Below are positions 8,704 through 26,958 of a stretch of 32,194 nt of DNA, piece after piece; within the stretch, counting starts at the first letter, position 1; each line of letters begins with the position of its first letter. This stretch comes from Deltaproteobacteria bacterium (lineage in GTDB: Bacteria; UBA10199; DSSB01), in assembly GCA_020853015.1 (NCBI GenBank), contig JADYZQ010000299.1, positions 1-32,194 of the forward strand. The letters are read 5' to 3'. Made by a program: the position numbers and the translations under genes. Under the pieces are notes generated by a model. That model did not search any database, had not been told where the DNA came from, and saw only the letters and a program-made list of their open reading frames with translations.

Positions 8704-11478
8704 TTGACCTATGGCTCGGGGGGGCCAGGCAATTTAATCTTTCCGACTTTCTTGGGAACTCGCCGAGTCTCGGCGCCGGAGACTTTTTCGGCCGAGACGC
8801 TCTTGGCCGATCTCGCCCGCGCCTGCGGCGGACGCGCGGCGCTCGCGCGCCGCGGCGGCGATGGCTTCTTGGCGGAGTGGGACGCGCTGGCGCGGGAGCA
8901 GGAGGCGCCGAGTTTTTTGGAAGGCCTGCTGGGCTTGGCGGAGCGGCAGGAGCGGGCCGGGCATCTCGAGCTGGCGGGCGAAATCTATGCGGCTGTCGTA
9001 GGGGCGAACCTGGGGCCCCGGTCGCGCCGCGAGGATGAAGCGAGTGAAGGGAGCGCCCTCCCCCATCGTGCAGGAGGGCGAACTCCAGGTTCGCCCCTAC
9101 AACAACGCGCACAACGCCGTCTCGACGCGATCCTCGGCCGCGGCGACAACCTCGCCCGCGCCGAATTCCTCGGCCGCCGCCTCGCCGCCGAGGCCTGCGA
9201 CCCGGCCGTCCTGACCGCGATGGGACTGGCGGGCCTCGCCTTCCGCACCGCGCGGCTCGCGACCCTCTCCCGGCTCGCGATCTCTCCCGCCGAAACCCTT
9301 TGGACGCGCGGCCTCGGCGCGCGCCTGCTCTCCGGCGGCGCCGGCTTCCTGCTCGAGGCCCCGACCTTCACCCTCGCCCATCGCGGGGCGGACGCCCTGC
9401 TCGGCCGCGAGGTCGACCTAAGCCGCGAGGCCCTATTTCGTGATTTTGCGAGCGGCGCCCTGACCTTGCTCAGCCTGCGCCTCGCAGGCGGCCTGAGCCA
9501 GGCGGCCCTCGGGCGCTGGGCCGCCGGCGGCGGCCTTGGGGCCCAGGCCGCGCGGACGGTCCTCCCGCAGGCGGCGATGTTTGGCGGCCTGCTGCTCAGC
9601 CATCGCCTCGAGACGCAACTAGGGCTGCGCGAGGCGCGCGGCGACGCGACCGCCGCCACCGACGCCCTGGCCGCGCTGCTCAGCTTCCAAGTCGGCGGAC
9701 GCCTCGCCCATCACGCCTTCGGCGAGACCGCGGCGGCGCGGGAGCGCGCCTTGGAAGGCCAGGTCCGCATCCTCGACGCGCTCAACTTCCGAAACCCGAC
9801 CCGAGTGGAACGCGGCTCGCTCCGGCGCGGCCTCGCCTGGGGCCCGGCGTTCGCAGCCCTGGGCGTGGGACTTCATACCTTTTTAGTCCCCGGCCGAGCC
9901 TGGGCCCAGGACCACGGCATGAACATCTTGGACCCGCTCAGCATCGAGGTGATCACCGCGCTGGTGACCCTGGCGGGAGGGGGCGCCGCCTACGGCCTCA
10001 AGCGCCTTTACGACCACTATCGCGGCGTACCCCAAGAATCCCCCGACTTTTTCAATCGCCATCGCGCCCGCATCCTCTCCGGGTTGGGCGGACCGCCGCC
10101 CGCCGACGCCCCTCTGGCGGGCGAGGCGCAACTCGTGACGGAACGATTGCGCTTCAGCCACGAGGACAACCTCTACCGGACGGTCGGCCCCGAAGAGTTA
10201 CTTGCGGCGCTTTCGGGAGCCGCTCCCAGGGATGGAGGACCGATGCGCAGCAACGCGCGCTTCGCCGTGCGCCGCAAGGGTCCGCGGGTCTTCGACATCG
10301 GCGTCGACTTGGCGAACGGCTTCTTCACCCGCATCCTCGAGTTGACGCACGCCCTCCCGCAGACCCCACTCCCGGAGCGGGCAAACGAGGACGAGACCCT
10401 CTTCCGCATCGGCCAGCACCTCGACCTGCAGCAATTCGCCGACGCCCTGCAAAAGCCGGTCTTGGCCTTGCCTATTCTGCCCGGCTCCGAATATCGCCTT
10501 GGCGTCCCGCTCTACCATTCCTCCTCCGGCTACGTCCTGCCGACCTATACCCGCGGCGTTCGCGGCATCACCGCCGAGCAGCTGCGCGCCCTCGGCACCT
10601 TGGGCGGAATCCTGAGTCCCGCGCCGGTCGAGGGGGACTCCGCCAGGCCCTTCCTCATCGAGAACGACGGGAGCGGCTACCTGGCGATGGATTGGCAGGT
10701 CGCCCGCGTCGAGACGGTGCCCAGGGCCCTGCAGGACTTGGCGCGCCGCGAGGGCATCCGCGTCAACGGCCAGCCCCTGGCCGGCGGCCGGCCGAGCCGG
10801 CCCCTGAGCAACGGGAACCGCATCCAAATGGGCGGAACGGAGCTGCTCTGGATCGCCCCCCGGCCCGGTTTCCGGCTGGCCCTGATCCGCGCGGAGGCCC
10901 CTCGGGTGGCCCCCATGGACGACGGAGCGCTCCTTGAGCGCAGCCTGAGTCGAATTCCGGGGAATATCGCCGACCTTTTATCGAACGTGGAGATCCGGAT
11001 CCCGCGCCAGTCCATCCCCACCGAGCTGCTCGAGCGCTACCGCGCGATCTACCCGTCCCCCCTCTTGCGCCTCCCCGACCTCGTCTACGAGGCGAACGAC
11101 AGAACCCGGGTGCTGCTCAGCCCGCGTCTGAAGGGAGGCGACCCGATTCCGGTCGGAACGAACCCCGGCCCCGGCGGCATCTACCTGCACGGCGCCTGGA
11201 ATCCGCAGGCCCGCCGCTATGAGATCGCCGGTCAAGACGTGGAATTCTTTCTGCTTCAGGACGGAGATACCTATCTCTTTCAGGCGGCGCCCCGCGCCGA
11301 CAACGGGGCGCCCGTGCGCCTGCTGCGGACTGAGGGCGGCACGGCCCCGCGCGAGCTCACGCTCGCACCCAAAAATAGGGTCGAGTTGCAGGACGGCGAC
11401 GTGATCGAATTCGGCCCTCTAGGCGGGCGCACCCGCCTGCACTGGTTCCGCAACCTCGACGCCCCGGGGAGGACTTAG
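8704..11478 (+). CDS. Family 1 large protein, copy 1 (unknown function)
   Basis: I do not recognise a named family. This 924-residue protein shares its N-terminal 340 residues with the next two genes: a helical region ending in EIYAAV (about 95-103), a variable linker, DAILGRG near 141, and a block with AMGLAGLAFRTARLATLSRL and LPQAAMFGG. The linker is coded by a palindromic element (8995-9103) and is about 40 residues, against about 22 in copy 2. Residues 377-397 and 414-435 are hydrophobic and could form a membrane hairpin. The C-terminal half is beta-rich, with FHA-like pieces: IRVNGQPLAGG near 685 and VELQDGDVIEFGPLGG near 895. A canonical SRxH core is not visible, so FHA is only a possibility. 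There is no signal peptide. Copy 2 starts 2 bp after its stop, so the two are cotranscribed. Confidence 0.82.
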   Translation: MTYGSGGPGNLIFPTFLGTRRVSAPETFSAETLLADLARACGGRAALARRGGDGFLAEWDALAREQEAPSFLEGLLGLAERQERAGHLELAGEIYAAVVGANLGPRSRREDEASEGSALPHRAGGRTPGSPLQQRAQRRLDAILGRGDNLARAEFLGRRLAAEACDPAVLTAMGLAGLAFRTARLATLSRLAISPAETLWTRGLGARLLSGGAGFLLEAPTFTLAHRGADALLGREVDLSREALFRDFASGALTLLSLRLAGGLSQAALGRWAAGGGLGAQAARTVLPQAAMFGGLLLSHRLETQLGLREARGDATAATDALAALLSFQVGGRLAHHAFGETAAARERALEGQVRILDALNFRNPTRVERGSLRRGLAWGPAFAALGVGLHTFLVPGRAWAQDHGMNILDPLSIEVITALVTLAGGGAAYGLKRLYDHYRGVPQESPDFFNRHRARILSGLGGPPPADAPLAGEAQLVTERLRFSHEDNLYRTVGPEELLAALSGAAPRDGGPMRSNARFAVRRKGPRVFDIGVDLANGFFTRILELTHALPQTPLPERANEDETLFRIGQHLDLQQFADALQKPVLALPILPGSEYRLGVPLYHSSSGYVLPTYTRGVRGITAEQLRALGTLGGILSPAPVEGDSARPFLIENDGSGYLAMDWQVARVETVPRALQDLARREGIRVNGQPLAGGRPSRPLSNGNRIQMGGTELLWIAPRPGFRLALIRAEAPRVAPMDDGALLERSLSRIPGNIADLLSNVEIRIPRQSIPTELLERYRAIYPSPLLRLPDLVYEANDRTRVLLSPRLKGGDPIPVGTNPGPGGIYLHGAWNPQARRYEIAGQDVEFFLLQDGDTYLFQAAPRADNGAPVRLLRTEGGTAPRELTLAPKNRVELQDGDVIEFGPLGGRTRLHWFRNLDAPGRT
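8995..9103. repeat. Palindromic element inside copy 1 coding sequence
   Basis: The left arm GTAGGGGCGAACCTGG (8998-9013) is the exact reverse complement of the right arm at 9085-9100. Allowing one mismatch, the arms extend to 19 bp (8995-9013 and 9085-9103). The 71-bp interior holds smaller nested stems, for example CGCCCTCC (9054-9061) with GGAGGGCG (9073-9080), and GGGCGAAC (9076-9083) with GTTCGCCC (9089-9096). The element is translated without a stop and makes up the linker between two conserved blocks. It looks like a REP- or MITE-like unit tolerated in frame. Confidence 0.8.
11466..11473 (+). promoter_or_regulatory. Ribosome binding site for a GTG start
   Basis: GGGGAGGA, seven bases before the GTG at 11481, lies within the end of copy 1. 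It supports the GTG start and translational coupling. Confidence 0.7.
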
Positions 11479-11480
11479 CC

Positions 11481-14400
11481 GTGGAACGCCTGCAACCCAA
11501 CGGCGCCTGGGCCGGAATCCTGGACTCCTCGGCAAGGCGGGAACTGGAATCCCTGACGCGGGAGACCGACGATTGTCTCTACCTCGAGGGGCTACTCACC
11601 TTGGCGCAGCGGGAGGAGCGCGCGGGAAGGGTCGATGTCGCGGCCGAGTTGTATGCCGCCGTTGCGCAAGAGACGGGCGCCGCTGGGGCCCTTCGCGAAC
11701 GGCCTCTACAGGACCGCGCGCGAGGCGCCCTTGACGCGATCCTGGGCCGCGGCGCCGCCGCCCCCCGCGCCGAATTCCTCCTGCGCGGCCTCGCCCAGCA
11801 GGCCAGCGACCCCGCCGCGATCTTCGCCATGGGGGTCGCGGGCAGCGTCTTTCGCATGACGCGTCTGGCGGCCTTGAGCCGCTTGGCGTCGACGCCGGAC
11901 ACGAATTTTTTGACGCGCGGTCTCGGGGCCCGGCTCTCCGCGGGCGCCCTGGGCTTCCTGGCCGAGGCCCCGGCCTTCACTGCTGCCTCGCGGCTCGGCC
12001 ACGCGGCCTTGGGCCGCGAGCAGGACTGGAGCCCGGGGGCGATCGGCCGGGAATTCGCCGGCGGCGCCTTGACCCTCTTGGGCCTCAAGGCCTTCGGGGG
12101 CTTCAGCGGCCTAGCGCTGCGGCGCTACGCGCAAGACCCCGGCCTCTCCGCGGGGCTGCTGCGCACGCTCCTGCCCCAGGCCGCGATGCTGGCCGGCATC
12201 CTCGCGAGCCATCGCCTCGAGGCCCGGCTGGGCCTGCGGGAACACCACGACGGCGCGACCGAATTCACCGACGCCTTCGCGACGCTCTTGCAATTCCACG
12301 CCGGCGGCCGCCTGGCCCACCAGGCCTTCGGCGAGGCCCAGGCCCGCGGCGACCGCCTGATCGATGCGCGCGGCGAGGCGCTGCTCTCCGTCCCTCGCCT
12401 CGAGGCTTTGGCGCCGCGCCTCCCCCGCCTCGTCACGGCCGGGGGGCCGGGGGACCTCCCCAACACCGTCTTCGCCATGGCCGCAGGTCCGGGCGGCGCC
12501 CGCGGCCGGCGCGCCGCGACCGCGCAGCTCCCGCTCCCCTACGAGACGGGCCTGAGCGCCCCGCGCGGGCGGGCGCTTCCACCGGGGCTGCCCTTGGAGT
12601 TTCGCCTCGCCGAAGGGGCAAGGGGCGCCGACGCGGCCCTCCTCCGCTCCTCGCTGGCCTATCTGACCCGGCAGGGACATCCCCTCAGCCGCGCCGAGCA
12701 AATCGTCTGGATCCGCGAGCACCGACTCGCCGGCGGCATCCCGCTCTTGGGCGAATGGTTCCGCCAAAACGGTTCCGAGTCGGCCGCCGCGCTGGCCGCG
12801 TTGCGCGCCTTCGGCGCGAGCCACCGCGCCGAGGTGATCGCCGAACTGCGGACGGCCTTAAGCCACCCTCATTTGCTCGTCGTGGCCCCGGCCCTCGAGG
12901 GCCTGGTCGCGCTCCGGGCAGTCGAGACCCTGCCGGAGCTGCGCGCCTTGAGCGCCGCCTACCCGGCGCCGGTCGCGATGCTCGCCGAAACCGCGCGTGT
13001 GGAATTGGGCGACGCCGAGATGGTTCCCGTCCTACGACCCCGCGCCTTCACCTGGCAGCCCTCCGCCTTGGACCGCATCTCGGCCCTCGAGGCCCTGGGC
13101 CGACTCGGCCAAGTGGAAGAGGCCCTCCCCGAGCTGCGGGGTTTCTTCCGTTACAGCCGGACCGTTTATTTCCGAGCCGGCCTGGCCCTGACCCGCCTGC
13201 GCAGCGAGGCGGCCATCCCCAACCCCGCCGCGATGCGCGAGGCCGCCTCCCTCGCGGAGCGGGCCGATTGGGCGGAGGCCTACGCCGCCAGCGGGCGTCC
13301 TGGACGTGCCGTCGCGCTGTGGCGCTCCTTGCTCGTCTCGAACGACCGCGCCGTCCAAGAGCGGGCCATCTCCCGCCTCGGCCCCGGCGAGGCCGCCGCG
13401 TTGCTCCCCGAGCTGGAGCGCCTGCGGACCGAATCGCCTCACTCGGAGATCCGGCGGGGGGCGGCGGAGCTGTGGATCGCCTCGGCCCGGGCGCGGGGGG
13501 ATCGCGAGGCCCTCGAAACCTTCTTTTTGACAACCGAACCCGCCTCGATCCAGGCCACCGAGCGCCTGCAGGTCGAGGCGGCTCGCGCCCGGTTAGAGTT
13601 GGGCGCGAGTCTGGAGGCGAGCGAGCGGCTGGAGGCCTATTTGGAGAGCCGCTTCCCCGCCGTCCGGCTGCGCACCGCCGAGGCCCTCTTGGCAGGCGGG
13701 GAACACGAAGGCGCCCGTCGCGCCCTCGAGGCCCTGTGGGAAGACGGAAGTTTCGAGATCCGGCACCGTGCCTTCGCCGTCTGGTCGCGCAGCCGCGCGC
13801 CGCGCCCGGCCGCGAACTCCGGTCCAAGCGGCGGCTTGATCGCCCTGCTCGCAGCGGGCTCGGGCTTGGGCCTGCTCTTCCATCCCTCCCTGGCCGAGGC
13901 CTCGGTCGGGATGGGCTCGGGCGGTGGCGCCGACCTCCCGTGGCTGCTCGCCGGAATGGGCAGCCTGCTCGCGGGCGGCGTCGCGATGGTGGTGCAAGCC
14001 AATCCAGGCGAGGGCGCGCGGCGCGGCTCCGACCGACCGCCCCACGCCGGTCTGCTGGGCTGGTTCGAAAATCCGAATTTTTCCGAAGAGCGCTACTTCC
14101 TCGCCCCGCCGCCCGAGGCCGTGCCGGAGAACCAGCGCTTCCTAACGCCGCCCGCCGAGGGCCAAGTCCTGGCGCTGGGCCGCGCCAGTCGGGCGGCGGA
14201 AAATCTTTTTCCCGATCACCTGCGCCACATCTCGCGGCGCCACCTGGACCTGCGGGTCGTCGCGGGGAAGGTGGAGGTGCGGGCCCACGACGGCTCGCGG
14301 GGCCTGCGCATCAACGGCCGCAACCTGGCGCCCTTCCAATGGTACGAGCTGCGCGACCGGGACACGGTCGAATTCGTGGCCGAGGCCGGGCGCGACGTCT

Positions 14401-15908
14401 TCGGGACCGAGCCCAGCGCGGAGGAGCCGGGGGAATTCGTCACGGTCACCCGCCGCCTCGGCCGTAACCCCGTCGAGGAGCGGGACGCGCCCGCGATCTT
14501 CGTCTTCCGCCTGCCGCGGCCCCCCCAGACTCCGGTCCCGCCGCGGCCGCGGCGCAACCTGCTGGAGCAGGTCCAAGGCCTCTTCGGCTCGCGCCCCGCG
14601 ACGCCCGAACCCGCCGAGGAACCGCGGCGCGACAGCACGCCCGTCGCCGCCTTCCGCGACCCGGAAGAGATCTTTTCCGAAATTCAGCGCTTCTCCAATA
14701 CCCTCAGCACGCCCATGCCCCTCTTGGAGATGAGCTTAAGCCAGCCCGATTGGCTGGACCCGCACGAGCAGCGCGGCGCCGCGGCGCGGACGGACACCTT
14801 GCGGTCCCTCCTGCGAATCCACCGTCAGATCTGCGGCAAGGAGGAGCATTGGGTGCCCGTCGCGACGCCGGCCGCGGGCCTGACGCGCCCCTCCTTCCAG
14901 TCGCTGCGCATGCCGCGCTGGGACGGCGTCCTGCGCCAGCGCCTCGAGACTTATCGCCAAGGCCTGGAGCGGCTGCGGCAGGAGCGGGGGGATTTTCCGT
15001 TCTACACCGTCGCCCTCCAAGAACTGAACGCGATCGGCGACCGGCTCAACCGGCTCTTCGAGATCGTCCAGCTCTTCCGCCGCCACTTCACGGCGCCGGA
15101 GGATCTGGCGCAATTCGACGCCATCGAGGCCGCCTACCGGGGACTGAGGTCGGAGGTGGCGGGCGACGGTCAGCGCGTGCGCACCACCACGCGCGGCATC
15201 GACGTCACCGTCCGGCGACGGCAGCGCCAAGGCTGGGCGGAAGAGTTCGCGGGCTTCGCCAGCGGCTCGCGGGCGATGGTGAACATGCGGATCCTGATGG
15301 GCGACATCCGCGAGGTCCAAGGACTGCCCGTCGCCGGCTCGCTGTACAGCGCCCTGGCCAGCGGCACCGTCTACGACAACAAGGAGGAGCGCCTCGTCCG
15401 CAACGTCCGCGTCCTCTTCGAGGCCGGCAACGGCCAGATCGTCGCCTTCGACGACGGAAGTCCCGCCGTCCGCAACGTGACGCAGCGACACCGCGATCAG
15501 GGCCGCCGAATCGAAGAGGCCATGCTTTCCGTCGACGCCCGCGCCACCGGCCGCATTACCTCGGTGGCGGTCTTGGGCGAGGCCCGCGACTCCGTCGTCC
15601 AGGCCCTGGAGGGCCTGCGCGGGCTCCGCGTCCTCCCGCCGCAAATCGTCTACGGCTTCACGGGGTTCGCCGGAGAGGCGGAGGTGCGGGCCTACCGCGT
15701 CGACTTGGTCCCCGACGTCGACGCCGCGCCGGAGCAATGGTACCGGGTCGCCGGCCTGGTGCGGAACCTCCGCGAGGGCTACAGCCTGCTCACCCTCGAG
15801 GCCAACACCCCCGAGCTGGGGATGCCCGGCCTGCAACTCTGGGTCCCCAACATGGAGGTCCTCGACCTGGCCGTCGGCGACCCCGTCACCGCCCTCCCCG
15901 AATCTTGA
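11481..15908 (+). CDS. Family 1 large protein, copy 2, with HEAT-like repeats and an FHA domain
   Basis: A 1475-residue protein of unknown role. The N-terminal ~300 residues match copies 1 and 3 (AELYAAV, ALDAILGRG, AMGVAGSVFRMTRLAALSRL). Residues of about 395-775 form leucine- and alanine-rich helical pairs resembling HEAT or TPR-like repeats. Residues of about 784-803 and 817-838 are hydrophobic and may form a membrane hairpin. Residues of about 893-975 form a good FHA domain, a phosphothreonine-peptide reader: LGR, then HISRRHLDL, then GLRINGRNL and LRDRDTVEF in the expected order. A proline-rich linker and a ~400-residue C-terminal region follow, with a coiled-coil-like stretch (about 1145-1235) and a basic segment VTVRRRQRQGW. 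FHA suggests phosphorylation-dependent assembly, but no kinase gene is in the window. It starts with GTG. Confidence 0.85.
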   Translation: MERLQPNGAWAGILDSSARRELESLTRETDDCLYLEGLLTLAQREERAGRVDVAAELYAAVAQETGAAGALRERPLQDRARGALDAILGRGAAAPRAEFLLRGLAQQASDPAAIFAMGVAGSVFRMTRLAALSRLASTPDTNFLTRGLGARLSAGALGFLAEAPAFTAASRLGHAALGREQDWSPGAIGREFAGGALTLLGLKAFGGFSGLALRRYAQDPGLSAGLLRTLLPQAAMLAGILASHRLEARLGLREHHDGATEFTDAFATLLQFHAGGRLAHQAFGEAQARGDRLIDARGEALLSVPRLEALAPRLPRLVTAGGPGDLPNTVFAMAAGPGGARGRRAATAQLPLPYETGLSAPRGRALPPGLPLEFRLAEGARGADAALLRSSLAYLTRQGHPLSRAEQIVWIREHRLAGGIPLLGEWFRQNGSESAAALAALRAFGASHRAEVIAELRTALSHPHLLVVAPALEGLVALRAVETLPELRALSAAYPAPVAMLAETARVELGDAEMVPVLRPRAFTWQPSALDRISALEALGRLGQVEEALPELRGFFRYSRTVYFRAGLALTRLRSEAAIPNPAAMREAASLAERADWAEAYAASGRPGRAVALWRSLLVSNDRAVQERAISRLGPGEAAALLPELERLRTESPHSEIRRGAAELWIASARARGDREALETFFLTTEPASIQATERLQVEAARARLELGASLEASERLEAYLESRFPAVRLRTAEALLAGGEHEGARRALEALWEDGSFEIRHRAFAVWSRSRAPRPAANSGPSGGLIALLAAGSGLGLLFHPSLAEASVGMGSGGGADLPWLLAGMGSLLAGGVAMVVQANPGEGARRGSDRPPHAGLLGWFENPNFSEERYFLAPPPEAVPENQRFLTPPAEGQVLALGRASRAAENLFPDHLRHISRRHLDLRVVAGKVEVRAHDGSRGLRINGRNLAPFQWYELRDRDTVEFVAEAGRDVFGTEPSAEEPGEFVTVTRRLGRNPVEERDAPAIFVFRLPRPPQTPVPPRPRRNLLEQVQGLFGSRPATPEPAEEPRRDSTPVAAFRDPEEIFSEIQRFSNTLSTPMPLLEMSLSQPDWLDPHEQRGAAARTDTLRSLLRIHRQICGKEEHWVPVATPAAGLTRPSFQSLRMPRWDGVLRQRLETYRQGLERLRQERGDFPFYTVALQELNAIGDRLNRLFEIVQLFRRHFTAPEDLAQFDAIEAAYRGLRSEVAGDGQRVRTTTRGIDVTVRRRQRQGWAEEFAGFASGSRAMVNMRILMGDIREVQGLPVAGSLYSALASGTVYDNKEERLVRNVRVLFEAGNGQIVAFDDGSPAVRNVTQRHRDQGRRIEEAMLSVDARATGRITSVAVLGEARDSVVQALEGLRGLRVLPPQIVYGFTGFAGEAEVRAYRVDLVPDVDAAPEQWYRVAGLVRNLREGYSLLTLEANTPELGMPGLQLWVPNMEVLDLAVGDPVTALPES
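11682..11711. repeat. Decayed palindromic element in the copy 2 linker
   Basis: This 30-base stretch differs at only 4 positions from the perfect palindrome at 16755-16782 plus its next two bases. It is read in the same frame, giving GALRERPLQ here and GALREGPLQ there. It lies at the same linker as the element of copy 1, between AELYAAV and DAILGRG. The inverted symmetry is partly lost, as expected for an old insertion. Confidence 0.65.
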
Positions 15909-16016: not shown

Positions 16017-18320
16017 ATGAACTGGGGAGACACGGCCGGGATCCGCATCGGATCGAGGCCTCGCCGGGACAAGCAGACTTATGCTTTCGACGACCCGCAA
16101 GGCGGCTGGGCGCGGCTGCGCGACTTGCCTTGGAGTCCCGCGCAGGCCCGCGAGCTGGAGGCGCTGGGGCGGGAGACCGATCCGGAAATCTTTTATCGCG
16201 ACTTGATGAATTTCGGGCGACGCCTGGAGGCGGCGCAGCCGGAGCTGGCGGCGGAATTATATTCGGCGGTCTTGCAAGAGACACCCGCTGTGGGGGCCGT
16301 TCCCCCTTTAACGGGGGACAAGCGCGAACGGACCCTCGCACAAGAGGGCCTCGATGCGATCCTCGGCCGCGGCGCCCTCGGCCCCCGCGCCGAAGTCCTG
16401 CTGCGGCGCCTGACGCGGGAGGCCCTCGAGCCCAGCACCCTCTTCGCCATGGGCGCGGCCGGGGCGGTCTATCGCATGACGCGCCTCACGACGCTGCGCG
16501 GCCTGCTGCAATTGCCGCCCGGTCTCCTGACGCGCGGCCCCGGCCTTAAGGGCGCGGCGGCGCTGGCGGGTTTCGCCCTGGAGGCGCCGGCCTTCGCGCT
16601 CGGCGCCAAGCTGGGCGGGGCGGCCTTGGGGCGGGGGCAGGATTGGCGCGGCGAGACCTTCGGCCGGGAGGTCGCGTCGAGTTATCTGGTCTTGGGGGGA
16701 TTAAAGTTGGCGGGATGGGGAGGCAGCGCCGCGAACCGTAGGTTTGTCGCCCCCGTAGGGGCCCTTCGCGAAGGGCCCCTACAGATGTTGTTCCAGCAGG
16801 GCGCCCTCTTGACCGGCATCCAACTCGGTCATGCCTTGGAAGAACGCCTCGGCCTGCGGCCGCGCCTCGACGGGGCGACGACGCTCGTCGATTCCCTCGC
16901 CCTCCTCTTGCAATTCCATGTCGCCGGCGCCCTCAGTCGTCCCCTCTTCGGAAAGTCCTTCGACGCCTGGCAACGGGGCCTCGACCTGCAGGCCGAGCTC
17001 TCCGGCCCTCCCGTCAAGTCCGCCTTAAGCCCGCGCCTCGCCTGGGCCCTGCCGCTCGAGCCCCAAGTACGCGCCCGCGAGTTGAACATCCTCATGGAGG
17101 GCGAGCAGGGCGGCCGGCCCTCGCCGCCCATCGTCCGCGGCCGCCGCGGCAGCGACCCGCCCCCCGACGAGGGCGTGATCGGTCGGGACGCGCAGCGCTG
17201 GGGCGCCGCGCAAGGGCGCGACGCGCAATCCATTCGCCTGGTCGCCCTCTTGGCCGCCCGGCTGCGCGTCGAGCTGTGGAACGCCCTCAACCTGCGCATC
17301 GAGGGTCAGGTCGCCGCGGCCATCGCGCGGCGGCGGGAGCTCTTGGTCCGCCTCCTGCCGGTCGACGGCTCTCTGGAAAACTACGCCCTGGAATTGCACC
17401 CGAGAAGCCGGCTGGGCCCGCAGAGCGATCCCAACGAGGTGCGCTTCCGGTTGAATACCGCCGACGGCTCGCTGCGACTCCAGGACTACCTGCCCAACGC
17501 GGTCTGGGAGCTGCGCCGCCAGCAGGCTGGCCTCCCGCCGGTCGCCGGCTTCCTCCCCTTTTACCGATCAATCCAAGGCTTCGCGAGCGAGGGCCTAAGG
17601 GCCGAGCCCCTGCTCGACACCCTGCCCCCCGCCGCCAAGGAATACGTCTTGCTGGAGCCGACCCGCGAGCTGCGGCCACCCGGTCCCCTCCCCGCCGAGC
17701 CTGCCCCCGTCAACCAAGCGCCGGCCGAGCCCAACAAGTCGACGATCACCGGTCCCACCCTCCTGGTCGCCTATTTTCCCCGGATCATGGCGGGGGCCCG
17801 AGAGAGCGTCGACCGCTACTTGGACGAGATGATGATCCGGGGGGAAAAGGAGCGCAAACGCCTCCACGGCCTCACCCAGCACATCCTACTCACCCTCCAC
17901 CAGAGGGAGGTCGAAGACCCGGAGATCGGGAGCGTCAGCAACCTGCAGATTTGGATTCGCCCCTCCCCCCAAGGACAGGGGAGGCGGAGCGTCGAGGTCC
18001 TAAGCCCGATGGAGGCCCTATTGAAAAACCAAGAACAGCCCTATGGGCCGGAGGACATTTTATTGATTCTGAGCCGAAATCCGGGCTATTTGGGCACAGA
18101 AGTACCCACCCTGGAACATCAATACCTCCGCCACAACCGAAAGAACCCCCGCATCCCCGCCGGCGAGGATCTGGAGTTTCAGCGCGACCTTGGCCTGGGC
18201 GACCAGCTGCGCTTTCGGATGACGGTCCACGACCTGAGCCTGAGGCCCCCCGACCTCGCCAGCTGGCAGCGCTGGATGGAAGCGCACGTCCGCGGGGCCA
18301 AACCCCCCGACCTGCCTTAG
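16017..18320 (+). CDS. Family 1 large protein, copy 3 (unknown function)
   Basis: This is the shortest copy at 767 residues. It shares the N-terminal block with copies 1 and 2: RETDPEIF, AELYSAV, LDAILGRG, AMGAAGAVYRMTRLTTLRGL, and a region near 260-315 with LLQFHVAGALSRPLFG. It lacks the putative membrane hairpin and the clear FHA domain of copy 2. Residues of about 355-430 are charged and arginine-rich. The rest mixes helical and beta segments, with an apparent C-terminal beta domain (IPAGEDLEFQRDLGLGDQLRFRM). Two palindromic elements lie in its coding sequence: one at the linker shared with its paralogues, and a perfect 28-bp palindrome at 16755-16782 coding for VGALREGPLQ. The start at 16017 is the first usable ATG that covers the region aligned with copy 2. 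Function unknown. Confidence 0.8.
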   Translation: MNWGDTAGIRIGSRPRRDKQTYAFDDPQGGWARLRDLPWSPAQARELEALGRETDPEIFYRDLMNFGRRLEAAQPELAAELYSAVLQETPAVGAVPPLTGDKRERTLAQEGLDAILGRGALGPRAEVLLRRLTREALEPSTLFAMGAAGAVYRMTRLTTLRGLLQLPPGLLTRGPGLKGAAALAGFALEAPAFALGAKLGGAALGRGQDWRGETFGREVASSYLVLGGLKLAGWGGSAANRRFVAPVGALREGPLQMLFQQGALLTGIQLGHALEERLGLRPRLDGATTLVDSLALLLQFHVAGALSRPLFGKSFDAWQRGLDLQAELSGPPVKSALSPRLAWALPLEPQVRARELNILMEGEQGGRPSPPIVRGRRGSDPPPDEGVIGRDAQRWGAAQGRDAQSIRLVALLAARLRVELWNALNLRIEGQVAAAIARRRELLVRLLPVDGSLENYALELHPRSRLGPQSDPNEVRFRLNTADGSLRLQDYLPNAVWELRRQQAGLPPVAGFLPFYRSIQGFASEGLRAEPLLDTLPPAAKEYVLLEPTRELRPPGPLPAEPAPVNQAPAEPNKSTITGPTLLVAYFPRIMAGARESVDRYLDEMMIRGEKERKRLHGLTQHILLTLHQREVEDPEIGSVSNLQIWIRPSPQGQGRRSVEVLSPMEALLKNQEQPYGPEDILLILSRNPGYLGTEVPTLEHQYLRHNRKNPRIPAGEDLEFQRDLGLGDQLRFRMTVHDLSLRPPDLASWQRWMEAHVRGAKPPDLP
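16292..16335. repeat. Nested palindromic element in the copy 3 linker
   Basis: The outer arms GGGGGCCGTTC (16292-16302) and GAACGGACCC (16326-16335) pair with one mismatch. Inside them, TCCCCC (16301-16306) pairs with GGGGGA (16313-16318) around TTTAAC. The element occupies the same linker as those in copies 1 and 2 and is translated in frame. The inner hairpin looks like a second repeat type lodged within the first. Confidence 0.5.
16755..16782. repeat. Perfect 28-bp palindrome in copy 3 coding sequence
   Basis: The 14-bp arm GTAGGGGCCCTTCG (16755-16768) is followed immediately by its exact reverse complement (16769-16782). It codes for part of a loop that differs in sequence from the matching region of copies 1 and 2. 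Its first seven bases, GTAGGGG, match the arm ends of the element at 8995-9103. Perfect symmetry in a coding region suggests a recent insertion or active maintenance. Confidence 0.85.
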
Positions 18321-18557
18321 TTAGTGGATCGGCGGTTTCCAATTGCCGCGGTGCGTGAAGGTAAAACCTTAGAATCCCTAGAGAATTTGGTTGTCTTCCG
18401 GGGCAACTTCCCCTAGGAAGCCCCGATAAATTAGGTAGGGAACCTGCCGGGGCACAGCGGTTAAAAGAGGGTAGCCGCCTAAAAATCATGAAATCATGAC
18501 GCATTTCGCATGGGGCACGCCATCGCGAAGGGCCATTGGGTCGAGAGGGGTCTCGGC
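18321..18557 (+). other. Structured intergenic leader before Family 2
   Basis: A 237-bp gap, less GC-rich than its neighbours. It can fold into three consecutive hairpins. The first is CTTCCGGGG (18395-18403) with CCCC and GGAAG (18410-18413, 18416-18420). The second is GCCCCG (18420-18425) with CGGGGC (18448-18453), enclosing AGGT/ACCT. The third is GCGG (18457-18460) with CCGC (18475-18478). A tandem octamer AAATCATG lies at 18483-18498. No T-run follows any hairpin, so I do not call a terminator. It probably carries the Family 2 promoter and an RNA leader, but it matches no riboswitch I know. Confidence 0.4.
18543..18550 (+). promoter_or_regulatory. Ribosome binding site deciding the Family 2 copy A start
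   Basis: GAGAGGGG lies seven bases before the ATG at 18558. This favours 18558 over the ATG at 18510. Copy C also begins MTP followed by the CxxCHG motif, in agreement. Confidence 0.65.
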
Positions 18558-21182
18558 ATGACGCCCCCTTGCGCCAACTGTCACGGGGCCCGCGGCACCG
18601 CCTCGCTCGACGAGACCCTGCCCGAGCCCCCCCCCTGTCCCACCGAGGGACGCTGGCCGGACTGGATCTCTGCGGTGGATCCCGAGCTCCCCCAACAAGA
18701 GTGGTGGGTGCGAAGCAATTTCGAGGCGGCGCGCGAGACGCCGCGGCCGCTGCGCCTCGACGTGGGGCGCGCCGAGTTCGCGGCGGAGATCCGGCTTCGC
18801 CCCGGCCTTCGGGAATTCGCGGGCTTTCCTTGGAGCGATTCGCCCTACCAGGCCCTAGGCGTGGAGATCTCCCCCGGGGCCGCCCTCACTTCCCGCCTCG
18901 AGGTCCGCGACAACGCCCTTCAGCTCGGCCTGAGAAATCTCCTCGCCATCGACGGCGTTTATCTGGACGGCCCCCTCGGCCTCAATTTCTGGCCCGAACG
19001 GGTCAGCGTCGGCGATTACGGCGAGCTGCACGCCATCGCCCGCACCGGTGCCGGCGCCTTGTTCTTACTCGACCCCTTCATGGTCCCGCGCCCGCCGCTG
19101 GGCCGCGACCTCCCCGCAGGGGATCAGTGGGAGGCCGTGGCCGAATGTCTGGCGCGAGCCCCCGACGCAGGCGCGGCGGATTGCTACCCAGCCGCGACCT
19201 ATCCCAACCACCGCGACAATCTGCGGATCGACTACTTGTTGACGCGATTTATTCCGGCGGAGCTCCTGGAGCCGAACGGACGCCTGCCGGCGCATTTCAA
19301 TTTGGAGACTCTGATCGCGCGCCTCCTCGACTGGCGCCGCGCCCGTTCCACCGGCGCCGTGCCCGCCGCGCCGGACCCGCGCGGGCCGCTCAGCCGGGCG
19401 CGGGCGATCCTGCAACCCCTCCAGGAATGGCTGGAACCGGGCAGCCGCATCGATTTAAACATCGCCCAGCTCAACGACCTCTTTCTCCCCGGCATCCTCG
19501 ACCTCGGCCCCTCGCGCGGCAGCTTCGAGGTCATCTATCGCGGGGGCCAAGCGGTGACAGCGGAGTCCCGCGACCTCGAGATCAACCTGGACCCCATCGA
19601 CTTCCCGGCGCGGCCGGGCCCGACGCGCCCGCCGATCCGCCTCGAGACGGCGACGCTGGTCGCGGCCGCCGCGAGCGCGGAGCTGGACGGGGTCGAGACG
19701 CCGCCGGGGCTGCGGGTCGAGTTTGACGCCGCGACCGGCCGCCTCTGGATGGAAGGCAATCTCGCGCTGAGCGCGCAGGCCGCCTTGCCCGCCTTGGGCG
19801 CGGTGGAGCTCGACGGCCAGCTGTTGTTTCGCAGCACCTGGCAGTTGACCGAGACCGGCTTGGAGCCCCTGCCCGAATCGACCTCTTTAGAATTTCGAAA
19901 CGGCGAGCTGTGGGAGGCGGGCGGACGGCGTCCCCTCCTGACCGAATTCTCCCTGACGCTGAGCGACCGTCCGGAGTCCCCGCCGGGCTTGGAGGCCTTC
20001 CTGCGGGGCCCCTCGGCCGAACCCCGGGCGCGCCTCTCGCTCTCCGGCTGGGCGAGCCGCACCCGCCGCGTGGAGCTCGGCGCCGCCGTCCCGCTCCCGC
20101 TGCGTCCCGAGGCGGCGCGCTACGACTTCGAGGGCCTGTTGGAAAATCTCTCGGCCGAGATCCTGTTTCAACTCAACGGCTCGCACTCTTATGCGGCCGA
20201 GGTCGCCCTGCGCAGCGCCGAGTCGGAACGCGGCCGCAGCCTCAGCCTCGATTTCGACCTGAGGGAGGGCGAAAACGGCGCGCCCGCCCGCCGCCCCCTG
20301 GTGCGCGAGGGGCATCTGGAGCTGCGCTCAGAGCGCGAGTACGAGGGCCACGACCATTACTTCGCCGAGTTCCGCGCGGCGGCGATCGACCGCGGCCCGG
20401 TGGTCCTGCGCGGCGTCGAAGGGGAGCTGGCCGTCGACCGCTTGGAATTTCAGGACGGCGTCAGCCAGATCCGCGTCCCCCGGCTGCGCCTCGGCCTCAA
20501 CCCGCACGGCGCCCCCGGCGGTCTCCTGCGCGGCCCCGTCACCCTGCTTTTGGAGCCCGGCGCGGAGGGCGCCTTGAACATCCTGTGGCACGGCCCGGAG
20601 CGCCGCCTGGACGTCACCGGCCTCGACCTGCGCTTCCGGGCGGCGGGGCTGCGCGTCCTGCCGCGCGGCCTGCTCGACCTGCTGAACCCCTCCGTCGCGG
20701 GCATCGGGCTGGACGGGCACTTCGAGGGCGGCTTCACCGCCGAGTTTCCGGAGGATCGCCACCGCTGGCGCGCCCGCGGCGACCTGCGGCTGCGCGGCGA
20801 CCGCGACGGCGACATCTACCTGATGGACGCCGCGGGCCGGCGGGTCGGCCTCCCGCTGGTGCGCGACACCCGTTGGCGCTGGCGCCGGGTCGACCGCATC
20901 GATTGGCGGCGCCGCTACGCCCTGGGGGATTTTCACTTGGACACCCTGCTCAACTTCGCCGAGCTCTTGCCGCGGGGGACGGCCCGCCCCGAGACCGGGG
21001 CCGAGGCCTACGGGGCCCGCGGCCAGCGCCTGTTTTCCTATGAGGTCAACGGGGTGATGCCCTACGACAACCAGCCCTGGGACCTCGAGGGCTTCCGCAA
21101 CCGCATCGTCGACTACTTGCTCGCCCTCTGCCGGCAGAACGCGGAGTGCCGCGCCGGCATGGCAGGAGGACGCCGCCCATGA
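18558..21182 (+). CDS. Family 2 beta-rich protein, copy A (unknown function)
   Basis: An 874-residue protein of no named family. It opens MTPPCANCHG, a CxxCHG motif at residues 5-10, without a signal peptide. After a short tryptophan-containing helix (EWWVRSNFEAAR) the protein becomes long runs of alternating hydrophobic and polar residues, typical of beta-strands. It shares with copy C the motif DLFLPGxLDLGPSR (near 305-320), RLRGDRDGDIYL (near 745), RDTRWRW, YALGDFHL, and the C-terminal MPYDNQPW (834) followed by GFRNRIVDYL and a CRQ-x3-C cysteine pair. The repetitive strand pattern recalls AsmA/TamB-like beta-groove proteins, which is inference only. Its stop overlaps the start of copy B by four bases (ATGA). 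Confidence 0.82.
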   Translation: MTPPCANCHGARGTASLDETLPEPPPCPTEGRWPDWISAVDPELPQQEWWVRSNFEAARETPRPLRLDVGRAEFAAEIRLRPGLREFAGFPWSDSPYQALGVEISPGAALTSRLEVRDNALQLGLRNLLAIDGVYLDGPLGLNFWPERVSVGDYGELHAIARTGAGALFLLDPFMVPRPPLGRDLPAGDQWEAVAECLARAPDAGAADCYPAATYPNHRDNLRIDYLLTRFIPAELLEPNGRLPAHFNLETLIARLLDWRRARSTGAVPAAPDPRGPLSRARAILQPLQEWLEPGSRIDLNIAQLNDLFLPGILDLGPSRGSFEVIYRGGQAVTAESRDLEINLDPIDFPARPGPTRPPIRLETATLVAAAASAELDGVETPPGLRVEFDAATGRLWMEGNLALSAQAALPALGAVELDGQLLFRSTWQLTETGLEPLPESTSLEFRNGELWEAGGRRPLLTEFSLTLSDRPESPPGLEAFLRGPSAEPRARLSLSGWASRTRRVELGAAVPLPLRPEAARYDFEGLLENLSAEILFQLNGSHSYAAEVALRSAESERGRSLSLDFDLREGENGAPARRPLVREGHLELRSEREYEGHDHYFAEFRAAAIDRGPVVLRGVEGELAVDRLEFQDGVSQIRVPRLRLGLNPHGAPGGLLRGPVTLLLEPGAEGALNILWHGPERRLDVTGLDLRFRAAGLRVLPRGLLDLLNPSVAGIGLDGHFEGGFTAEFPEDRHRWRARGDLRLRGDRDGDIYLMDAAGRRVGLPLVRDTRWRWRRVDRIDWRRRYALGDFHLDTLLNFAELLPRGTARPETGAEAYGARGQRLFSYEVNGVMPYDNQPWDLEGFRNRIVDYLLALCRQNAECRAGMAGGRRP
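21164..21170 (+). promoter_or_regulatory. Ribosome binding site deciding the copy B start
   Basis: AGGAGGA, eight bases before the ATG at 21179, fixes the start and gives an ATGA overlap with copy A. The longer reading from 21146 would begin before this site. Confidence 0.75.
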
Positions 21183-24090: not shown

Positions 24091-26958
24091 ATGACCCCCT
24101 GCAATAATTGCCACGGCGGCGAGGGCACGCGACCCAGCCGAAACGAATTGGAATGGCTGACGCGCGAGCCGGCGCTGGGACCCGAGGGCGGCCGCAACGG
24201 CTCCGATGCGACCGCGACGGTCCCGCCCGACATCGACTGCCCCGCCCGCCCGCACTGGCCCGAGCGCCTCGCCCGCGACCGCGATCTACTGCCCGCCTTC
24301 TCTTGGTGGGTGCGGGAAAATTACCGCGAGACCTTGAGGGCCGCCCGACCGGGTGTGCGGCCTTATTTCGTCGACGTCCGGGACGCCTCCCTGGGGCTGA
24401 GCCTAGGCCTGCGCAACTTCACCTACAACGGTTCGCGGCGGGAGGATTTCCATTCCTGGAGCACTTACACCACCGACGTCCACGCGGCGCCGGGCGGGCG
24501 CCTGGAGCTTCGCCTCGAGGCGGAGGGTAACGAGCTCCCCTTGGAGCGCGGCCTGCTGGCACTGCACGGCGTCTCGGTCGACGGGCCGTATTTCGTCAAC
24601 CTCTCCGGGATCTCGCGCCAGGCCATCTTCGAATCCGACGGCGACCTCTGTCTCCTGCCCCAATCCCTGCTCGCCGACCCGCGGCACGGACTGCTGGCGT
24701 CGCCCCACCCGCACTACACCGGGGGTATCGCCCTTTATCCCGAAATTTTCAATCTGGGCGGCGGCGCCGGCGTCTCGGCCAATCTCTGCCTGCCCCTGCC
24801 GACGGAATTCCGCTCGCCGGCGATCTCCGAGGCCCCTCCGCCCCGGACCTACGAGCTCAACGACCTGCTGGGCCGGATCCAAAATTATCGCGAGAATCAT
24901 CCGCCGCGGCCGCCGGGCTCGGAGTCGTGGCTGCAGCGCCTCTTCCTCGGCAGCGGGCGAAGGCTGCAAAGCCTCTTCGAATTGGTCCAGACGGGGAGCG
25001 AGTTGAACTTGGAACTCAGCGACCTCCAAGATCTCTTCCTCCCCGGGATGCTGGACCTGGGCCCTTCGCGACTGGGGCTGCGCGCCGTCGTGACGCCGGA
25101 GCGCGAGGTCGAGGCGACGCTGACTCCCCTGTCCCTCGTCTTCCAGGCGATGGGCTACGGGCGAGATCCGGACACGGAAGAGCCGCGCCTGCTTTTGGAT
25201 TCCGCGCGCCTGACGGGACCCGCGGAGGGTCCCGCCCTGCGCCTCCGCCTCGACCCCGTCGCCCGCGAGCTGCGCTCCTTGGAGGCGCAGGTCTCGCTGG
25301 AGGCCGTCGTTTCCTTGCTGCGGCCGGCTTGGCGCGGCCTGGGCTTAAGCGGCAACCTCCGCTTGGCGCTCCACGACGCGGGCCGCTGGGCCTTCGGGTT
25401 GAGCGATCTTTCGGTCACGGTGCCGGAGCTCCGCCTCTCCCTCGGCGACGCCGAGGCCGGCGCGGAGCCCGCCGTCCTGAGCGGCGCCCTGCGCGGCGGC
25501 GAGACGCCCCGCGCCTTGCTGGGCGTGACGATCCCGCCGGGACTGCGCGGCGCATTCGATCCCGCCGCCGGCGAGCTGCACCTCGAGGGCAACCTGGTGT
25601 TGAGCGCCGAGCTCCGCGGCCCGCGGGGAAATTTCGAGTTGCGCGCGCCGCTGGCCTTCTTCACCACGCTTCGACTCGGCGCCGGGGGGCCCGCGCCGAT
25701 CCCCGGCAGCACGGCGCTTTCCATCGAAGGCCTGGAGCTGATCGACGCCTCGAGCCGCCGCGAGCTCTTCCGCGACGGGGAGCTGTTTTTCAGCGACGAC
25801 CCCGACCAAGACATTTTCCGCGAAGGCCGCGTCCTCGAGGGCTTCTCGCTTAACGACGCGACGCTCGCGCGGCATCGCAGCCTCCCCGCGACGGTCGAAT
25901 TGCGCGGCGTCTGGGAAAACCACCACCGGGTCGACCTCCGCGGCCACCTCCCGCTGCCGCTGCGCGACGCCGAGCCCCGCGCCTACGATTTCTCCGCCCT
26001 CCTCGAGGACGCCGCCGAGCTGCACCTGGACCTCTTCGACCTTAACCCGGCTCCCGCGCCGGGCGGGGCCCGCGCGCCGGCCTTCAACCTGATCGGCGGC
26101 GTCCTGCGCGCCCAACGCTTCGCCGAGGCGGACGGTCGAACGCTGTGGGACTTTCGGCTCGAAGGCGAGGCGTTTAGCCTCGGGCGCCGGGGCGGCTTGG
26201 TCTACTTGCGGCAGCCGCGGCTGGAGGCCGAGCTGGACCGTCTCGAGCTCCAGGCCGGCAACCTCCTGGTCCGCATCCCGCTTCTGGACCTTCGGGCGAA
26301 CGAGCGCGGCAGCCCCGCCGGCCGGCTGCGGGGACCGATCCACGTCCACCTGAACGGCACGGAGCGCGGCGGCCTCGAAGTGGAACTGGACTCGGAGCGC
26401 CGCCCCACGGCGCTCCGCAACCTCGACCTGGCCTTCAACCTGCAAGGCCTCGACGTCCTGCCCCCGCGGCTACGGCGCAACCTGCCGGGCGGCGCCCGTT
26501 TCGTCGGCCTGGACGGCCACCTCGAAGGAAATTTCCGCATGAATTATCCCGAGGACCCGCGGCACTGGAACGGCCGCGGCGCGCTGCGGCTGCGCGGCGA
26601 CCGGGACGGGGACGTCTACTTGCTGGATTCCAGGCTGCGCCGCGTCGGGCCGCCGCTGATCCGGGACACCCGCTGGCGCTGGGACCGCGTCGACGGCGTC
26701 GACCGGCGACGCGGCTATGCCCTGGGGGATTTCCACTTGGAGCTGCTGCTCAACCCGATGCCGCTTCTGGGATCGGTCGAAGCTGCCTCGCGCGGCTTGG
26801 AGGTCGCCTTCGGCGGCGACGGGCGGCGGCTGCGTCCCGGCGAGATCTGGGCCGAGATGCCCTACGACAACCAGCCCTGGACGCCCCGGGGCTTTCGCAA
26901 CCGCATCGTCGACTACCTCGAGGCCCTCTGTCGCCAAAGCCCGGGCTGCCGGCCTTAG
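24091..26958 (+). CDS. Family 2 beta-rich protein, copy C (unknown function)
   Basis: A 955-residue protein, closest to copy A. It starts MTPCNNCHGGEGT, with the CxxCHG motif at residues 4-9 and no signal peptide. The tryptophan-rich helix (WWVRENYRETL), DLFLPGMLDLGPSR near 312-327, RLRGDRDGDVYL near 832, RDTRWRW, YALGDFHL and the C-terminal MPYDNQPW (924), GFRNRIVDYL and CRQ-x3-C all match copy A. The bulk is a long series of amphipathic strands (LRLRLDPVARELRSLEAQVSL-like stretches). It is the last gene of the tandem run; the VWA gene starts 85 bp later. The conserved N- and C-terminal motifs suggest contact surfaces common to A and C, with B the divergent partner. The role is unknown. Confidence 0.82.
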   Translation: MTPCNNCHGGEGTRPSRNELEWLTREPALGPEGGRNGSDATATVPPDIDCPARPHWPERLARDRDLLPAFSWWVRENYRETLRAARPGVRPYFVDVRDASLGLSLGLRNFTYNGSRREDFHSWSTYTTDVHAAPGGRLELRLEAEGNELPLERGLLALHGVSVDGPYFVNLSGISRQAIFESDGDLCLLPQSLLADPRHGLLASPHPHYTGGIALYPEIFNLGGGAGVSANLCLPLPTEFRSPAISEAPPPRTYELNDLLGRIQNYRENHPPRPPGSESWLQRLFLGSGRRLQSLFELVQTGSELNLELSDLQDLFLPGMLDLGPSRLGLRAVVTPEREVEATLTPLSLVFQAMGYGRDPDTEEPRLLLDSARLTGPAEGPALRLRLDPVARELRSLEAQVSLEAVVSLLRPAWRGLGLSGNLRLALHDAGRWAFGLSDLSVTVPELRLSLGDAEAGAEPAVLSGALRGGETPRALLGVTIPPGLRGAFDPAAGELHLEGNLVLSAELRGPRGNFELRAPLAFFTTLRLGAGGPAPIPGSTALSIEGLELIDASSRRELFRDGELFFSDDPDQDIFREGRVLEGFSLNDATLARHRSLPATVELRGVWENHHRVDLRGHLPLPLRDAEPRAYDFSALLEDAAELHLDLFDLNPAPAPGGARAPAFNLIGGVLRAQRFAEADGRTLWDFRLEGEAFSLGRRGGLVYLRQPRLEAELDRLELQAGNLLVRIPLLDLRANERGSPAGRLRGPIHVHLNGTERGGLEVELDSERRPTALRNLDLAFNLQGLDVLPPRLRRNLPGGARFVGLDGHLEGNFRMNYPEDPRHWNGRGALRLRGDRDGDVYLLDSRLRRVGPPLIRDTRWRWDRVDGVDRRRGYALGDFHLELLLNPMPLLGSVEAASRGLEVAFGGDGRRLRPGEIWAEMPYDNQPWTPRGFRNRIVDYLEALCRQSPGCRP

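Follow-up and report, generated by a model that had tools for sequence, protein, structure and literature searches.

A GTAG-type palindromic repeat read in frame at two loops of a bacterial paralogue family

Coding palindromes and the element of copy 3

Coding palindromes are best known from Rickettsia, whose palindromic elements lie both between genes and in frame within ORFs, including those of housekeeping tRNA-related enzymes. Protein-coding DNA with dyad symmetry is also found in the PARCELs, tandem 25-residue repeats that are dispersed in genomes and diversify proteins, and the MITEs and BIMEs are short non-autonomous inverted-repeat elements. The GTAG REPs are interspersed, mostly intergenic palindromes of 20-40 bp that start with an unpaired GTAG end, have short loops and sometimes occur in pairs (Di Nocera et al. 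2013, PMC3733652). That paper reports intragenic REPs in repair and tRNA-synthetase genes, places different REPs at about the same recB site in two Xanthomonas species, and equates some Rickettsia elements with REPs.

In the 32,194-nucleotide stretch of DNA analysed here (the window), positions 16755-16782 form a perfect 28-bp palindrome with a half-arm of 14, GTAGGGGCCCTTCG followed by CGAAGGGCCCCTAC, to which no strand is assigned. It lies in an ORF of 767 aa without a Pfam match (16017-18320, + strand; copy 3), where it reads in frame GTA GGG GCC CTT CGC GAA GGG CCC CTA C and encodes VGALREGPL at codons 247-255. An earlier note on this DNA had judged such symmetry very unlikely by chance, and first-order Markov simulations of the window, 200 in number, indeed gave no half-arm above 11; the protein is also seen to differ around the palindrome from copies 1 and 2, as that note had remarked. 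Copy 1 (8704-11478, + strand; 924 aa) has an FHA match at the cut-off and copy 2 (11481-15908, + strand; 1475 aa) a HEAT_2 match. The N-terminal helical domain of copy 3, of about 330 aa, is common to a large paralogue family. An AlphaFold model of this domain, built from three sequences (mean pLDDT 71), had no significant Foldseek match in the PDB. In it, with moderate confidence, the palindrome starts in a loop between helices 212-244 and 254-277, which we call site 2; a further element, at site 1, falls in the loop that joins helix 75-88 to helix 102-116.

We compared the own genome (G000) with a sister species (G001), a third congener (G002) and two members of the same family (G003, G004), each a single representative in draft assembly, with within-species polymorphism outside the scope of the comparison. 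The host protein family has at least 17 scored members in each of these five genomes, and a first look gave 36-96 candidates per genome; its C-terminal parts are variable (HEAT, FHA), and the N-terminal domain is without a Pfam match. Elsewhere in the window, two long ORFs without a Pfam match (18510-21182 and 24091-26958) carry common repeated DNA, are 73-75% identical near their 3' ends, and each start with a CxxCH motif (CANCH and CNNCH).

Constant arms and variable cores of the repeat

The palindrome of copy 3 is a member of a repeat family, as the earlier note had supposed. The 14-mer GTAGGGGCCCTTCG occurs 12 times in the own genome, and the paired form GTAGGGGC-N0-20-GCCCCTAC at 31 places genome-wide, with the backward-read control at zero in both cases. 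By exact arms, to which all these genome-wide counts are limited, there are 49 copies in the sister species (control 0), one in the third congener and none in G003 and G004; degenerate copies were counted on contigs that carry the element or the gene family, so that their numbers favour the paralogue family.

The layout is one of constant arms, GTAGGGGC and GCCCCTAC, around a variable core. The commonest core defines type A, GTAGGGGCCGTTCGCGAACGGCCCCTAC; type B is GTAGGGGCGAACCTTGTGTTCGCCCCTAC; and in type C a 21-bp hairpin is nested within type A. Different cores are found in other families of the class, for example GTAGGGGCGGTTCGCGAACCGCCCCTAC in G045 and GTAGGGGCACGTTGCAACGTGCCCCTAC in G043. 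The type-B arms match those of a long element at site 1 of copy 1 (8998-9100, + strand; GTAGGGGCGAACCTGG ... CCAGGTTCGCCCCTAC), which the earlier note had described as a 109-bp element akin to the palindrome. The kinship is borne out by identical outer arms, which lie at 8998-9005 and 9093-9100; read in frame, the long element gives VGANLGP...GSPLQ, and its RNA fold has -69.5 kcal/mol (z -5.4).

Units are 28-29 bp in size, and 15 of 22 type-A copies in the own genome and 22 of 30 in the sister species lie outside the paralogue family. Copies outside it are mainly intergenic, judged by coding potential, and have weakly conserved outer flanks, roughly GG-N5-CGCAA past the CTAC end. In unit size, in number per genome and in their mainly intergenic placement they are like GTAG REPs. 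Identical 28-mers also occur sporadically in Nitrospinota, Acidobacteria, Abyssobacteria, Chloroflexi and other MAGs, in a scan of named genomes that left the own genome out. A literature search with the arm sequence gave only unrelated matches among the matches listed.

Fixed loops and turnover at them

In 84 extracted paralogues we found 47 type-A matches (at most 8 mismatches), which fall at two homologous loops only (alignment columns 190/205/206 and 412), typically 456 bp (152 codons) apart, and encode the pattern VGA-xREx-PL. The position is filled in many paralogues besides copy 3 and never in another frame: all 47 matches lie in frame 0. This single frame is not forced by the sequence, because frame 1 is also without stops. 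At site 1, copy 3 holds a degenerate type C (16290-16338, + strand; GTGGGGGCCGTTCCCCCTTTAACGGGGGACAAGCGCGAACGGACCCTCG, read VGAVPPLTGDKRE), and copy 2 a type A with four mismatches to the consensus (11682-11709, + strand; GCTGGGGCCCTTCGCGAACGGCCTCTAC, read AGALRERPL). The in-frame paralogue elements are single short units without tandem arrays. They are comparable to PARCELs as dispersed, protein-diversifying coding DNA with dyad symmetry, but differ from them in being single loop units of 9 residues (or 16 to about 35 residues).

The orthologue of copy 3 in the sister species (L025/L174; 94% protein identity) has the palindrome at the same codon with one of 28 bases changed: the variable pair is C-G in the own genome, which makes the palindrome perfect, and G opposite G in the sister. 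Because the orthologues hold the element at the same codon, we place it before the split of the two species. The earlier note had called it probably a recent insertion; the palindrome does belong to an interspersed repeat, but is older than that split. In loops of several genes, moreover, the element takes the place of loop sequence instead of adding to it, which plain insertion does not predict. Recent insertion in copy 3 is not supported as the note states it, and only partly right. The note had added that conservation across distant relatives would speak for function rather than insertion. Such conservation was not seen: the paralogues first fetched from G002, G003 and G004 had no element within 10 mismatches, and a larger set from the same genomes had none within 8; homologues in the third congener and in another genus lack the element.

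Between paralogues, the elements are 86% identical and the adjacent 28-nt flanks 53-73%, which argues that the elements either postdate the paralogues or have undergone homogenisation. Third codon positions agree at 82-87% in the element versus 43-54% in the flanks. GTA is used in 23 of 40 elements and CTA in 33 of 40, while both are rare elsewhere in the family, GTA at 5% of Val codons and CTA at 3% of Leu codons. Since third positions and rare codons are both kept, selection on the protein is not sufficient to account for the conservation.

The repeat also enters unrelated genes, which we take, from a reading of their sequences, to be LeuS, PheT and PlsB. In-frame elements read as VGA...PL occur in LeuS and PheT of the sister species (the latter of type C) and in a PlsB-like acyltransferase of the own genome; a HEAT-repeat protein has an in-frame element in both species, and PheT of the own genome a decayed one. 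Such in-frame residence within coding genes is shared with the Rickettsia palindromic elements, to which we liken the present repeat in its behaviour; it differs from them in its other phylum, its much shorter unit and its strong concentration in one paralogue family.

One LeuS loop is filled in 4 of 30 genomes, G001, G004, G012 and G045 (loci L231, L233, L235 and L265), which span three families, by palindromes with each genome's own core. In G031 (L264) and G041 (L272) the same loop holds other G- and C-rich hairpin-like repeats. Among the four filled loops, three have 27-30 aa and the one with the long element of G004 has 41; unfilled loops have 28 aa in most genomes (range 23-29). As these lengths are nearly equal, the short element either replaces the loop or inserts with later trimming. 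The arrivals at one loop in different families appear independent, which argues that tolerance of the loop, rather than a shared ancestor, decides at this place.

The occupants of fixed positions turn over. At site 1 of copy 3, type C in the own genome corresponds to type A in the sister species, and three further orthologous pairs differ likewise (L113+9941/L162+11749, A/C; L113+6202/L162+8054, C/D; L114-438/L163-2, A/D). Between genes, a locus with matching flanks has type A in the sister species (L154) and type C in the own genome (L224); at another (L125/L144), where the own genome has a solo 29-bp type B, the sister has a type A enclosed by a longer type-B pair; and at the orthologous intergenic locus L098:2490/L147:9711 the asymmetric type-B core is inverted between the species. 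The sole palindrome of the third congener sits at the orthologous place of a sister-species copy, with another core. In one paralogue of the own genome (L112_-8103; L112, G000:C184, + strand at about 1728), the upstream flank of site 1 leads into one palindrome and then directly into the downstream flank of site 2, an in-frame loss of about 152 codons between the sites; its sister-species counterpart (L180_+2068) keeps both. Such a deletion is as expected from recombination between the two palindromes.

Proposed origin and spread of the coding copies

We consider it likely that the element is a non-autonomous interspersed palindrome of the GTAG kind, tolerated in frame as loop and spread among paralogues at two loops. 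Our best reading of these data likens it to a REP- or MITE-like palindromic repeat that may serve as tolerated loop-coding sequence in the manner of the Rickettsia elements. Under this model, a usually intergenic palindromic repeat, arriving as a mobile or copy-prone unit, would be filtered by frame and loop tolerance, surviving within genes at loop positions where it is read as GTA-GGG-GCN...CCC-CTA-C. At a time before the own and sister species separated, two loops of the paralogue family of copies 1-3, then expanding, would have held such elements; later they would have spread among the paralogues, their cores being swapped, nested or deleted at fixed positions. We infer that duplication, together with recombination or gene conversion, carried the elements from paralogue to paralogue, rather than a new transposition for every copy. 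The peptide that they encode would be neutral filler, with selection acting on the reading frame and on the length of the loop. Several points tell against this explanation: neither a clean empty site of the same length nor a target-site duplication or a linked transposase was found, the reuse of the exact codon in divergent paralogues is hard to reconcile with free transposition, and ordinary gene conversion would call for more homology in the flanks.

It is less probable, though worth weighing, that the element is a bona fide GTAG REP moved by a RAYT transposase, with each coding copy a separate transposition. GTAG stands at its ends, as in the REPs of PMC3733652. The sister species has three RAYT-like genes (PF01797; NF047646 below its cut-off), and the genome-specific LeuS elements point to independent arrivals. 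However, in this element and in most copies the GTAG tag is paired with CTAC, all 28 bp of the element being symmetric, and no RAYT gene is seen flanked by the repeat: around the Y1 genes of G001, G002, G004 and G007 the flanks retrieved hold no palindrome pair, and those of G001 lie in no visible REPtron. No Y1 gene was found in the own genome (81% complete), and the palindrome-rich genomes G012 (100% complete), G017 (98%), G037, G039 and G045, like the own genome, gave no RAYT-like match; conversely, many RAYT-bearing genomes are without palindromes. Free transposition would also hardly be expected to hit an identical codon position in dozens of paralogues. Having tested the unpaired tag and the RAYT association and found neither, we do not file the element as a GTAG REP; PMC3733652, as far as consulted, moreover describes no large paralogue family in which interchangeable types fill two fixed sites. 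With MITEs and BIMEs the repeat shares the short non-autonomous inverted-repeat form, and its long type-B elements resemble paired REPs. A search for transposons by PF01797 linked no transposase or parent transposon to the palindrome, and no target-site duplication was identified, there being no clean empty site of the same length for comparison, as filled and unfilled loops are nearly equal in length.

Rather speculatively, the two palindromes might be standing recombination cassettes, whose constant arms and swappable cores would allow exchange of loop peptides and the shuffling or deletion of the 152-codon segment, such that a selfish repeat would have turned into a device for loop diversification. 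Segment-wise identities between paralogues yield discordant pairs, but these do not tie recombination to the palindromes, because palindrome-free genomes show them too. Were this proposal true, loops like that of LeuS would be recurrent docking places for such elements across families.

We regard it as improbable that one ancestral insertion at each site of a founder gene was passed on to all descendants and has only decayed in G002 and G004. Such a history would accord with the site-1 loop being 48 aa long both with and without the element. It is at odds with the divergence of the elements, about 14% between paralogues against 27-47% for the flanks, with the intermixing of element-bearing and element-free members in the paralogue tree, and with the different types held by orthologues.

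More doubtful still is a functional RNA or DNA hairpin in the gene, for example a translation-pausing or protein-binding one, kept by selection. The copy-3 hairpin is strong when folded as RNA (-24.6 kcal/mol, z -4.1), and the positions are fixed across paralogues. On the other side, the copy-2 element has no folding advantage over shuffles left (z -0.9), positions 10 and 19, which form the variable base pair, are unpaired in 15 of 40 coding copies, orthologous sites hold elements differing in sequence and length, and the G002, G003 and G004 paralogues lack it. It is very improbable that the DNA is palindromic by accident and that a peptide motif VGAxREyPL is conserved by protein-level selection. 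The one reading frame and the similar loop peptides across paralogues and in LeuS would fit such a motif, yet the same DNA is intergenic at most places, which contradicts it, the rare codons and third positions are conserved, and where types B, C and D fill these sites the encoded peptide is a different one. That the palindrome is a chance product or an assembly artefact has a negligible probability despite the draft state of the genome (349 contigs), for no simulated window reached a half-arm of 14 and the independent sister-species assembly has the same element with the same flanks.

The preferred reading, a loop-tolerated palindromic repeat spread among paralogues, would extend the reading of palindromes as protein beyond Rickettsia, to nucleotide-exact fixed positions in dozens of paralogues and to a loop of one essential enzyme, LeuS, filled independently in several families. 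These copies form a natural, countable data set on how selfish repeats enter proteins, on whether any filter besides frame and loop length is at work, and on whether repeats promote recombination between paralogues. As a minor observation, two pairs of orthologous copies (L117/L138 and L126/L159) have two-base length differences directly beside the GTAG/CTAC end, which suggests small indels at the edge of the hairpin.
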